From assembly GCA_027627225.1 (NCBI GenBank), contig CM051027.1, forward strand, positions 88,396,451-88,460,450: DNA of 64,000 bases, in the 5' to 3' direction. The position numbers and the translations under genes are program-made. Under the pieces are notes generated by a model. That model made no database searches. It was not told the DNA's origin and saw only the letters and a list, made by a program, of their open reading frames with translations. The DNA comes from Congeria kusceri. Its lineage: Eukaryota > Mollusca > Bivalvia > Myida > Dreissenidae. Shown here in pieces: positions 2,097 through 8,601 of this stretch; position 1 is the stretch's first letter, and every line of letters starts with the position of its first letter.

Positions 2097-3588
2097 CTGC
2101 AGTAGAGAAATATACCTGCCTTGCACACTATGGACATGCAATTGTTGAATATTATTTGTAATATTGTCAGTAAGTGTATAAAACAGATCTAAACTCAAAA
2201 TATTAGATTTATATTTTTTAAAGTGATATATCAAATAGAATACAAAACTGATATTCACGACACACATAGGCTAAACACTGCCTTTTACCTAATTTACGTA
2301 ACGTTGTTGAAATCCTAAATAAATTCTTCAGCATTAAATACATGTGGTTCTATGCAGTAAAACTTGTAGCCAAACAAAATTAAAACTAAAAAAATATTCT
2401 ACTTTGAAGCCATGATTAATGTGGCAAATAGCAGAGTGAGCCTAATCTTGTCTCAACAACGAGGCATGCATGTCAAAATCATTGAACAACTTAAAGCCAT
2501 AAAATTTTCACTTGTAAACATCACAATATTATTTTCTGCAGTAGAGTTTGTTATGACAGCTAAAGTTACACAATTTCTTTCACAAACTTATACACATATA
2601 CATAAGAATCTTTTACTGGATGTGAGAACTCCATTTAAGAACCAATACAGTGGTTATCAACCAGAGCAAGTCTTCAGTCAGGAGCCTCATAATTATGCAT
2701 TGCAACACTAGAAAAAAGTGTTGATTTCTTGCAGTTGGTCAGGCAGACAAAAAATAGGCAGGCAAATCAATACCATATGTCAAATGACTCTGGTTGAGGA
2801 AGCATTTCAGCAGAATCAATACACTTTGTCTGCCATACCATATTGATGGCTATATACAAAACATTTTGCTCAAGGAATGGATTACATAATAAAATTAGAG
2901 ATGATCACATATTGTCATCAGGAAGATGTTTCTTGATCATGACAAGCCAAATCTGTTGAGGCCTTTCAACACATTTCCTCGACAGAATATATTATGTATC
3001 AAATACCCAGTTGGCACATCTAAATGGCATAGAGTTATTCACTGATATAAGATATTATCAGGTATTACCAGAAGATTTTAAAACTGACTGAGACTGACAC
3101 TTTAAATATGGTGCTGTATGACCCCAACCCTCTTGCCAACATTTGTCCATGGAAAATTATTGTTTATAGTTACATGTTGGCCTGCTGATTTAAAAAGATT
3201 AGCTTCTTTGGTAAATTGGGAGATTAAACCAAGCTTTTACTGACAGAACCATATGCATCACACAGCATTCATCATCAGACTGATACCTGTATACATTGTG
3301 TGTGACCACAGTCATCAATGGACATAATGTTCATAGTTCAATATTAACCAATGAAATTGAAGACATCCATGTATAACAAGCACTTTCATTGGCTAACACT
3401 CAAGACTTAAGTTAAATCATAGAACTTTTGTAGTTCATTGGGCTGGTCAATACATTACAAAAAATTTATAAATACATTTTAATGGTAAATGTTGTATTCC
3501 TAGGGCTAAAGCCAGCAGAAACAATCATACCAAAAGCCTTTGGTGATTGAAGGGCGTTATTAACTAGCTAGCCCTGATGACAACGTAC
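2097..3588 (-). other. BRSK: BRSK intron 11
   Basis: 1.5 kb of AT-rich sequence with no repeat or exon recognised. The plus-strand open frame at 2412-2711 has no family resemblance. Confidence 0.55.
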
Positions 3589-3701
3589 CGACTATTCAGC
3601 AGTTCCTGTATTAATCTGTCCTTATCCTTGAAACACTGTAGAGAGTTCATGGTGGACAGAACATCGGGGTCTATGTCCTCTATATTCGGTATAATAGAAG
3701 T
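3589..3701 (-). CDS. BRSK: BRSK coding exon 11: UBA region, first part
   Basis: The exon is 113 bp, 37 codons plus two bases. It reads TSIIPNIEDIDPDVLSTMNS then LQCFKDKDRLIQELLNS. EDIDPDVL and the following helices match the ubiquitin-associated-like domain that follows the kinase domain in AMPK-related kinases and supports its folding. The acceptor is GTTTGTTGCAG and the donor GTACGT; a split arginine codon (CG|A) joins exon 12. Confidence 0.94.
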
Positions 3702-4639
3702 CTGCAACAAACAATCTAAAAAGTACTACAATGCTGTGAAACTATAATTTACATTTGAATAATTGGTTTTTAAGTTTTGTAAGTGTTACTTTAAGAGTTT
3801 CAGGCATATTAATCTATATGCCATGCTATTTTCCCTGTACAAAACCTAACAGACTACTAATAGTAAAAATAGTACAAATACTGGATTTGATAGCACAATT
3901 TTTGTCGGATTTATTAACAACTTCCTAAGCTGTGAAGCATAAAAATGTTTCTTTAACATTTTTTATATAACTACAAAAAAGAAAAAATTGTTATGTTGAG
4001 GCCTAAGCCTCATATATGCATTATATAAAAAAGTATTGGGTATGCGTTATATCAACAAGGACCATGTCACAACAATATGATTACAAAGACAACACAAACA
4101 GATTGTCTTGTTGTTTTGGAGAAAACAAAGTCATGAACTCAAAAGCTAATAAATTTGCCAGGGGAAGATTCCTATATACAGCCTCAGATACATAAGGGCA
4201 AAGCCCTGCACGTGTTTTTGACAGACCAATGAACTTGCTGTGAGTAAAGCTGTCAGTTACATACACAAATAATTGCCAGTTTTACTCGAGCAAAACTATT
4301 CCTACTGCAACAATCCACAAGCCAGGGTAACAAATGAAAAGCAAACGAGTCAATGCGTTTTTCCTACGTATCTGAAATAGATCGCAGAGGGCCAGTATTC
4401 ATTAATAACCTAAGGAAAAACTTTAATGAATTTTTTTTTAATTTTAACATTTCGTAAGCTCTTGATAGTGTTGTTAATGGTTTAATTGGCATTAAAATGT
4501 TTTAGTCTTCGACAGACTCAAAACGTGGGGGCTTTTTTAACCATAGTGTTCATATAAATTGTTGAATTTCACATTGAAAACTTGATATGAAAATAACACT
4601 TTATAGTAACTTAAGTGAAGATATCCCTAGGAGCGTTAT

Positions 4640-4816
4640 GAACACCTGCCCAGATCTATTGGACATAATGCTGATATGCATACTGACATGTAATCAGTGA
4701 ACACCTGCCCAGATCTATTGGACATAATGCTGATATGCATACTGACATGTAATCAGTGAACACCTGCCCAGATCTATTGGACATAATGCTGATATGCATA
4801 CTGACATGTAATCAGT
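4640..4816. repeat. 59-bp tandem repeat, three copies
   Basis: Three essentially identical 59-bp units start GAACACCTGCCCAGATC at 4640, 4699 and 4758. Each contains TGATATGCATACTGACATG. The identity suggests a recent event. It lies in the intron before BRSK exon 11. Confidence 0.93.
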
Positions 4817-5603
4817 GATAGTGAGGAACCACAAGAAAGCACAATGGTCATAAATGTATAAATATATAATATAATTATCTGTGTATCTCCATCTTACATT
4901 TATGTTAACATATTAATATGTGCATCAACATACTGAAATTATTATCAATTGTAAATTGATAAAAGATATAAAAGCCTTGGATCTCCAGAAATATGAAGAA
5001 ACAAAGTTATCTATCTGTGTTATGGGTACCAATACATTGACAGACTACCCAAAATGACACAGGTTTAAAAGGACAATTCTAAAAGCACCCATTTGTGATT
5101 AGAATTCAAAGACATGCTCCAGACATCTAAGCCCTAAAGCCAATTATTGCTTGAATTGTCAAATATTCTACAACTTACAAAAACCTAAAATCTCAGTATA
5201 GAGGATGGAATGGTTTACAATAGATTGTACTTTACCTTTACTATGAAACATGTAATTTAGGGATTTATACTGTTGTTAGAAAATCAGAATACAGTGTACG
5301 TGTTTCTCCAGACATTTCTAGGAAATCTTTGAATATGATAAGAGCAGAAAGTACACACACCAATATGTCAAAGTCAAGCTAATGTGATTTGGTAACAATG
5401 AAGATGCATCAGCACTGACAATTATTTTCTCAAAGGAACAACTTAATAACTTTAAGAGGAAATCTCTATTACGCTTGTTTGCAGTAATTATGATGTCAGG
5501 GTAGACACTTTCTCAAAATATCATCACATAGTTAAACAATGCTTAACTGATAGTACGCTACACAGCCATGTATGAAAATACTATGTTAAATAAATAAATA
5601 ATA

Positions 5604-5873
5604 TACGTGGATTATCGTGGGAAAACTGGGCTTAATGAATGTGCGCAGTGTCCTCCCAGATTGTTTCGCCTGTGCAGTGCGCACAGTCTAATCCAAAACA
5701 ACACTTTCTGCCTACAGTGGATTTTATGTTTAGAAGAGACTTCCTTGAAACAGAAAATACCATACAAGCGGAGAGTGGCGTCCTGGATTAGCCTGTGCAG
5801 ACTGCACAGGCTAATCCGGGACGACACTTTACGCACATGCATTAAGCGCGGTTTTTCCACAACATGCCTCAGG
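5604..5873. mobile_element. Palindromic MITE, copy 2
   Basis: Same family as 1131-1400; the left arm is more diverged (CCTCCCAGATTGTTTCGCCT), the right arm well kept (GGATTAGCCTGTGCAGACTG). Confidence 0.83.
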
Positions 5874-6334: not shown

Positions 6335-7142
6335 AATAAAGGAGAGGGGCATAAGGCCCTAGGTCGCTCACCTGAGGGGCTAAGGCACTAAACTGTTCTA
6401 CGCAAGTTTCATGAAGATTCGGTTAAAATATGTGGACTCTAGAGTTTTCACAAGCTTTTGTTTTCAATTTGGTCTGGTGACCTAGTGTGTGATCCCATGT
6501 GACCCAGTTTCGACCTCGTCTGAGATAATATTAGGACACATGTTATGAGCAAGTTTCATGAAGATAAGGTAAAAAACACGACTTTTAGAGTGTTCACAAG
6601 CTTTTTATTCAATTTGACCTAGTGACCTAGTTTTTAACCCCACATGACCCAGTTTAGAATTTGTCCAAGATATCATTAGAACAAATGTTCTGGGCAAGTT
6701 TCATGAAGATTGGGCAATAAATCTGGCCTCTAGAGTGTTCACAAGCTTTTTTATGTTTTCAATATAGCCATAAAAGGAAAACTGCTCCAACCCCTGGCGG
6801 ACATGCTTTTCAACGGAGCGGAACCATTTTCAAACTCTGCCGAGATATCATAAGAAAAAATGTTCTGAGCCAGTTTCATGTTGGTTGGGCAAAAAATGTG
6901 ACTTCTAGAGTGTTCACCAGCTTTTTCTTCAATTTGACCTAGTGACCTAGTTTTTGACCCCACATGACCCAGTTTCAAACTCGTCCGAGAAATCAATGGG
7001 ACAAATGTTCTGAGCAAGTTTCATGAAGATTGGGCAATAAATGTAGCCTCTAGAGTGTTCACAAGGTAAATGTTGACGACGAACGATTCACTACGCAATC
7101 ACAAAAGCTCACCATGAGCATGTTGTGCTCAGGTGAGCTAAA
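6335..7142 (+). repeat. GAGCTC-type dispersed repeat, copy 2
   Basis: Imperfect units of about 180 bp with TTTCATGAAGATTGGGC, TCTAGAGTGTTCACAAGC and TGACCTAGTGACCTAG, ending in the palindrome AGCTCACCATGAGCATGTTG/TGCTCAGGTGAGCT. The body differs from copy 1 but the end is shared. Confidence 0.8.
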
Positions 7143-7544: not shown

Positions 7545-7596
7545 CTGTACAACTTGAACGACGGGCAATTCTAGTTCTAAATGATCTTGGCATTCC
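7545..7596 (-). CDS. BRSK: BRSK alternative exon 10a: linker to UBA
   Basis: A 52-bp exon with a strong acceptor (TTTGTTTCTTTCTAG) and donor GTATCA. Joined to exon 9 it reads MECQDHLELELPVVQVVQ. Its second half aligns with exon 10b (LELPVIQIVQ against ELELPVVQVVQ) while the first half differs. Equal length and phase, and shared sequence across the donor, mark it as a tandem duplicate. It leads in frame into exon 11. Confidence 0.87.
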
Positions 7597-8155
7597 CTAG
7601 AAAGAAACAAAACAAACAAAAAGATTTATACAACATTAAAGGATGCAAATAAGAATAGTAAAAGAATATAATACCAAATCAAACATTATAAACATGTTGT
7701 AATATATATATATAACACAATATGACTATTGTGAGCTAATGTTCATTATGGAATAACAAGCCGATATCATAAACATAATTGGCACGGTGTGTTTTTAACC
7801 TTTGGCAACAATTCCAGCAATTATACATTTGCTAAGAAATAAAAATTGCAAAGTATTTTTGTAAATATTTCCATACAAAATATTGGCAATCCATAATGTT
7901 CACACCCACATAAGTTTCATCTTTGACCAGCAATTCAACGTTACACCAAATTATCTGAAAAGTACTGTTGCAAAACATACATCTCAGTGACATAAGTCGA
8001 CAGTTCAGTACAAAAATACTTACATGTAAAACATGAGCATTATTGTACTTTGAACTGTCGAAGTGGTCAAGATGAAACTTGCGGCATGTATTAGTATACA
8101 GACAACAACAAATCCAAGACCTGTACATGTGTCATTTTATGGTCCATACTGATAC

Positions 8156-8207
8156 CTGTACGATTTGAATGACTGGCAGTTCTAACCCCGCCTCTTGTTT
8201 GTAACCT
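8156..8207 (-). CDS. BRSK: BRSK alternative exon 10b: linker to UBA
   Basis: A 52-bp exon with acceptor TTCTGTTCTGTAG and donor GTATCA. Joined to exon 9 it reads IGYKQEAGLELPVIQIVQ, the linker between kinase and UBA domains. The IGxK opening and the VQ ending are those of vertebrate BRSK (IGGKNEP...RKVQ, from memory), so this looks like the ancestral version. It has the same length, phase, donor and last nine codons in outline as exon 10a, 560 bp downstream in the gene. Including both shifts the frame. Confidence 0.85.
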
Positions 8208-8566: not shown

Positions 8567-8601
8567 ATGGTCACCCATGGATGTCTGTGTATTTCTTCTA
8601 A
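8567..8601 (-). CDS. BRSK: BRSK coding exon 9: 35-bp end of kinase domain
   Basis: This 35-bp exon encodes LEEIHRHPWVT plus two bases (AT) of a split codon. It matches the conserved end of the kinase domain (subdomain XI, HPW). The acceptor is TGTTTTCAG and the donor GTAAGT. Leaving in phase 2, it can join either of the two following alternative exons, giving isoleucine with 8156-8207 or methionine with 7545-7596 at the junction. Confidence 0.92.

Follow-up and report, generated by a model that had tools for sequence, protein, structure and literature searches.

SAD/BRSK kinases function in axonal development and presynaptic vesicle clustering (PMC4686854). In mouse SAD-A, the flexible linker between the kinase and UBA domains lines a pocket around His136 and makes hydrogen bonds to both lobes, the UBA domain is inhibitory, and the autoinhibitory sequence (AIS) binds where the kinase and UBA domains meet (PMC4686854). 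By analogy, the nearest functional parallel to a splicing exchange of this linker is the tyrosine kinase Fyn, which has mutually exclusive exons over its SH2-kinase linker. The FynT and FynB exons, like the BRSK exons described below, are exclusive tandem duplicates over a regulatory linker beside a kinase domain; the Fyn pair, however, reaches into the N-terminal part of the kinase domain as well, while the BRSK pair lies between the kinase and UBA domains (PMC9741552). Within the SAD family itself, exon 15 of Caenorhabditis elegans sad-1 is spliced in a neuron-specific manner and affects NAB-1/Neurabin binding, but it is a cassette that is included or skipped and not one of an exclusive pair; the accessible part of the source does not give its location relative to the linker (PMC6641836). 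Human BRSK2 is likewise alternatively spliced, at a tandem donor of exon 19, which alters the last residues of the protein and not the linker (PMC1779574). Another old exclusive pair, with one exon present only in some lineages, has been described for coq-2 of helminths, annelids and molluscs; unlike BRSK, coq-2 encodes a metabolic enzyme whose core is remodelled, and its pair occurs in nematodes too (PMC7434440). A report on the oyster kinome names BRSK once, for an onset of expression during gastrulation, and the string 'splic' is absent from the portion of its text that was accessible (PMC4883820). The earlier note on this DNA knew of no described exclusive pair in BRSK genes, and none was found in a literature search that covered mostly papers available without subscription.

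The window, a 64,000-nucleotide stretch of the 1.55-Gb assembly of Congeria kusceri (contig C4, 88396451-88460450), carries on its minus strand most of one BRSK/SAD kinase gene. It holds 12 coding exons and an exon 10 pair, and further C-terminal exons lie just beyond it. The exons were located with a BRSK2 probe (tblastn) and splice sites, and are as follows:

51994-51892, minus strand: exon 1, kinase domain (tblastn, splice sites)
40194-40100, minus strand: exon 2, kinase domain (tblastn, splice sites)
29421-29336, minus strand: exon 3, kinase domain (tblastn, splice sites)
23917-23777, minus strand: exon 4, kinase domain (tblastn, splice sites)
18959-18843, minus strand: exon 5, kinase domain (tblastn, splice sites)
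17017-16984, minus strand: exon 6, kinase domain (tblastn, splice sites)
13738-13670, minus strand: exon 7, kinase domain (tblastn, splice sites)
11274-11128, minus strand: exon 8, kinase domain (tblastn, splice sites)
8567-8601, minus strand: exon 9, end of the kinase domain (LEEIHRHPWVT plus two bases); ends in ...CAT, donor gtaagt
8156-8207, minus strand: exon 10b, 52 nt, G-type linker IGYKQEAGLELPVIQIVQ; acceptor ctgtag, donor CAG followed by gtatcagt
7597-8155, minus strand: intron between 10b and 10a, 559 nt, with a 127-nt AG-free zone and U-rich tract at its 3' end
7545-7596, minus strand: exon 10a, 52 nt, D-type linker MECQDHLELELPVVQVVQ; acceptor ttctag, donor CAG followed by gtatcagt
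3589-3701, minus strand: exon 11, start of the UBA region (TSIIPNIEDIDPDVL...); receives the stop if both or neither of the exons 10 are used
2096-1996, minus strand: exon 12
1506-1455, minus strand: exon 13

The best named relatives of the clam protein are BRSK proteins, with the kinase domain followed by a UBA domain as in the BRSK/SAD family, and among solved structures its kinase part and its UBA part both match the BRSK2 chains 4ynz and 4yom best. Residues 255-375 show their top identities with Mya arenaria (89%) and Ruditapes philippinarum (87%), which points to a heterodont bivalve. A downstream C-terminal exon, outside the window, encodes KKSWFG, whose SWF resembles the Trp-Phe that precedes the KA1 domain in an AIS; because this motif matches Trp522-Phe523 of the SAD-A AIS (PMC4686854), it is a predicted AIS. 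Elsewhere in the assembly, a 235-residue kinase-UBA query reached at most 60% identity, and no second BRSK gene was found among the best 150 of 415 candidates that were scored. Thus, the gene is taken as single-copy, as it apparently is in this assembly.

Exons 10b and 10a are diverged copies of one exon, likely spliced one at a time, and different 18-residue linkers are predicted ahead of the UBA domain. The properties that the earlier note had attributed to the two exons were recovered in full. Both are 52 nt long as read from the sequence, both are entered with two bases left from exon 9 and exit in phase 0, and both end in an identical donor, CAG followed by GTATCAGT. The acceptors have the AG and 14 and 17 pyrimidines out of 20, so that their earlier description as good is justified. 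The division into differing first halves and homologous second halves is likewise apparent, since 24 of the last 30 bases are identical as compared with 8 of the first 22, the latter being little above chance. A 40-nt block that includes the donor is identical at 34 positions, against 27 in the best of 1000 dinucleotide shuffles of the downstream region and 23 in the best match elsewhere in the window. Over the full 52 nt the match is weaker, with 32 identical bases where the best of 300 shuffles had 29. The encoded peptides, IGYKQEAGLELPVIQIVQ and MECQDHLELELPVVQVVQ, are identical at 8 of 18 residues. Homologous, adjacent, equal in length and phase and enclosed by one pair of flanking exons, 10b and 10a are arranged as expected of an exclusive pair. 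No further copy of exon 10 emerged when the minus strand of the window was scanned with a profile, which scored the two exons at 30.3 and 50.8 and the next best match at 2.1.

The reading frame is open through exon 13 with either 10b or 10a, and the claim that both exons or neither would break it was borne out by a stop in exon 11 in either case. Since 52 is 1 mod 3, joined or skipped RNA is frameshifted. Exon ends follow the exon 11 stop at 91, 192 and 244 nt when both exons are skipped, and at 33, 134 and 186 nt when both are joined, so that nonsense-mediated decay is predicted for both kinds of RNA. One exon would be chosen at a time, and mis-spliced RNA would be frameshifted and then decay. 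The frame is the one putative device for exclusivity that is visible in the sequence itself. Exons of lengths not divisible by three are found in 377 of 629 human exclusive clusters (PMC5740500), so a device of this kind is ordinary.

Exclusivity may be kept mainly by this frame together with regulated competition between two identical weak donors and a strong, U-rich 10a acceptor. The shared exon 10 donor scores 5.9, as compared with 6.6-10.0 for the other 12 donors, on a small PWM that was built from the same 12 donors with which it was compared. The AG-free zone of the 10a acceptor extends over 127 nt against 12-54 nt at the other 12 acceptors, and a run as long as this precedes 0.4% of the AGs on the gene strand; genes with exclusive exons are reported often to have long polypyrimidine tracts (PMC7969005). 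Exons 4a and 4b of OGDH are likewise exclusive, with a long AG-free zone and a U-rich tract before the downstream exon. Their branch points, however, are 25-41 nt away from the 5' splice site (PMC7969005), whereas the AG-free zone at the BRSK locus starts over 400 nt past the 10b donor, and an OGDH-like steric block is therefore a misfit. Steric crowding, which needs a 5' splice site less than about 50 nt from the branch point, is unlikely in an intron of 559 nt with its zone this far from the donor.

Other devices were sought in the introns around the pair. For docking/selector pairing in this one species, none of five intron pairs beat 100 shuffles each, the observed energy being reached by 83, 69, 45, 30 and 100 of the 100 shuffles. 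Seven simple splicing-factor motifs were mostly near background in the three flanking intron stretches; two of the seven, with counts uncorrected for that number, were TCTT, found 7 times in the 10b-10a intron against 2.8 expected, and TGTA[AT]A, found 2-3 times against 0.6-0.9 expected in each flanking stretch. The U12 consensus has the donor GTATCCTT and the branch site TTCCTTAAC. U2/U12 incompatibility appears unlikely, as both exon 10 donors agree with this consensus at 6 or 7 of 9 positions but lack CCTT; the best match to the branch site before exon 11 is 5 of 9.

A protein search with residues 255-375 recovered 223 proteins at E <=1e-10, the best 120 of which were aligned with both versions from the window. 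Further protein searches (33 and 42 matches) returned only proteins already in the first listing. The database entries are representatives of 90% clusters, so that the absence of an isoform from the list proves nothing. Linkers with G at position 2 and K at position 4 of the exon are here called G-type, and those with D or E at position 2 D-type. Among the best 120 of the 223 proteins, position 2 is G in 73, D in 41, E in 3, A in 2 and a gap in 1 (fragment P0110), the counted 18-mer of P0062 being a composite of two copies. All named arthropods, rotifers and the brachiopod among the proteins listed have G or A at this position, while D or E is found in named bivalves, gastropods, cephalopods and a chiton, and in other records too. 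There are hints of D or E also in the nemertean Lineus and in a gapped sequence of the annelid Owenia.

The pair was sought in other bivalves, as the earlier note had proposed, and was found in Ostrea edulis and also in the gastropod Biomphalaria glabrata. Isoforms X3 (P0020, G-type) and X2 (P0054, D-type) of O. edulis have 10 differences in their first 460 residues, all within the exon, and X3 shows the same 10 differences from X5 (P0053) over the first 300 residues. Isoforms X12 (P0052, G-type) and X5 (P0041, D-type) of B. glabrata have 10 differences in their first 355 residues, again all within the exon, and differ elsewhere too beyond residue 355; the NCBI 'X' isoforms are gene models. 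Two oyster-like pairs, P0010/P0044 and P0011/P0047, differ at 11 of 647 residues, all in exon 10. Seven pairings of the 647-residue proteins were tried, of which two differ at the 11 residues of the exon only and the other five add 1-4 scattered differences. The longest contigs of these proteins measure 2.8-3.6 kb, which for a gene of many exons suggests that the records come from spliced RNA, presumably of an oyster. P0010 represents 23 contigs and P0044 represents 2, numbers that are not read as expression. The expectation that productive transcripts carry one exon is supported by these isoform pairs, each with one 10b-like and one 10a-like member, and the exclusive reading of the clam exons, which are represented by genome sequence alone, is well supported by orthologues.

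No joined form was seen among the aligned proteins except in a doubtful annelid gene model from Paralvinella (P0062). This model has a G-type linker, 35 other residues and a second copy, ELELPMGQVVQ, in the same order as in the window, which hints that both exons were drawn into the gene model; the residue ahead of the second copy mismatches a plain retained intron. In Octopus, the BRSK isoforms P0057 and P0058 have the extra residues LQINRRSQLLSAIGVTR right before the D-type linker, and P0058 adds 15 more ahead of them, so the joint accepts further optional sequence in this animal. The protein P0001, of Centruroides sculpturatus, owes its top E-value to a repeat of the whole linker-UBA block, which is likely a model or assembly artefact.

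The two clam exons were assigned to these types with a profile built from 10 G-type and 15 D-type 18-mers, in which classes were set by eye and all 25 controls were placed in their own class when left out. Exon 10a scores 50.8 as D-type and 20.4 as G-type. Exon 10b scores 30.3 as G-type and 10.7 as D-type, its G score lying below those of all 10 G controls (35.5-53.7), and by sequence it is the more diverged of the two copies. In a less circular test, with classes defined by position 2 and placement made by the other 17 positions, 46 of 48 distinct 18-mers were placed correctly, the misses being G sequences of Solemya and of an oyster. By mean identity over these 17 positions 10a is nearer to the D-type (10.6 as compared with 8.5 to G), whereas 10b is no closer to either (7.9 to G and 8.0 to D), so that its putative G assignment rests mainly on G2, K4, Q5 and I16. 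Exon 10a is identical to Mya arenaria X2 at 18 of 18 residues and to Ruditapes at 16, and shares 11 with the D-type of Ostrea, 7 with the oyster G-type and also 11 with a rotifer G-type. Of the 18 residues of exon 10b, 11 agree with the oyster G isoform, as compared with 7 or 8 for the oyster D isoforms.

Since both types occur in a bivalve and in a gastropod, the pair is at least as old as the split between these groups if the types are orthologous, and the exon swap is likely an old molluscan switch. The 10b type would be ancestral, as most of the listed sequences of arthropods, rotifers and Lingula have G2 and K4 and solved BRSK2 has GGK; 10a would be the downstream copy, turned D-type in an early mollusc or earlier lophotrochozoan. 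We tentatively propose that a single duplication preceded the split of molluscs, annelids and nemerteans and has since possibly served as a two-position dial on SAD-kinase autoinhibition, with G-type and lophotrochozoan-only D-type linkers in different cells or stages. Separate duplications in bivalves and gastropods, with a convergent D-type look (D or E at position 2), would leave the switch real but not ancient. Such convergence seems rather unlikely to us, even though the exons encode only 18 residues, two G sequences come closer to D than to G once position 2 is removed, and the equal-length exclusive exons of mrp-1 arose independently per lineage (PMC7434440), for the D-types of bivalves, gastropods, cephalopods and the chiton resemble one another at most positions other than position 2, as their placement by the other 17 indicates.

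It is also conceivable, though improbable, that 10b is decaying or hardly used in the clam, that the working kinase always carries 10a, and that the pair is functional in oysters and snails only. The low profile score of 10b among G-types would agree with decay, as would the listed representatives of the heterodonts Mya and Ruditapes, which are D-type only; yet 10b retains an open frame, both splice sites and its 11 residues in common with the oyster G isoform, and close isoforms are hidden by the 90% clustering of the database. Dosage control as the main purpose of the pair, with joining or skipping as a deliberate poison event acting through mRNA decay and the protein difference secondary, is very improbable. 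Both wrong outcomes meet a stop in exon 11 that precedes later junctions by more than 50 nt, and the two identical donors are the lowest-scoring of the 14 examined, but both coding versions are retained as protein in oyster and snail, which a pure poison switch would not require.

Under the exclusive exchange of two coding linkers, the swap would replace the first half of the linker and retain its ELPVxQxVQ half. Because the linker of SAD-A sits at the inhibitory interface, its exchange in the clam protein is predicted, by analogy, to shift inhibition by the UBA domain and the AIS. The swapped linker may reposition the inhibitory UBA domain and tune the hold of UBA and AIS on the inactive kinase, depending on cell type or stage. 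Two natural linkers within proteins that are otherwise the same would provide a ready-made test of the role of the linker. If the types are orthologous, molluscs have retained an old switch from the bivalve-gastropod split or earlier, and its splicing control can be compared across clams, oysters and snails.

Several repeats were observed in and around the gene. The 12-mer ACAGGTATCAGT, formed by the end of exon 10 and its donor, has an exact third copy in intron 11 (3279-3290, minus strand), without an exon 10-like frame ahead of it, and occurs twice more with one mismatch; all five matches are on the gene strand, against 0.34 expected. Along intron 7 (13690-11546, minus strand), 19 repeats with at most 2 substitutions reproduce the last bases of exon 7 and its 5' splice site, GCATTACTAGTG followed by GTAAGG; they form arrays with 41-bp and 88-bp periods, a donor-derived minisatellite that yields many decoy donors. 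In intron 8 (11139-8854, minus strand), the end of exon 8 with its donor, CTCACA followed by GTATGC, occurs 17 times with at most 1 substitution and a 39-bp period. It seems unusual for adjacent introns of one gene to carry two donor-born arrays. The 10a-exon 11 intron contains a perfect 59-bp tandem triplication (4639-4818) as well as dispersed-looking repeats (6394-7065 and 5665-5834), which comprise diverged 245-nt direct copies (84%) with sub-blocks of about 35 nt, and a long near-palindrome. Elsewhere in the assembly, contig C5 has several near-identical kinase-like open frames at about 19.93-20.65 Mb, spaced roughly 111 kb apart, and a 307-aa kinase-like open frame with a constant 29% match to the query lies on many contigs (e.g. 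C3:60336158, C17:2636474), resembling a dispersed multi-copy gene.
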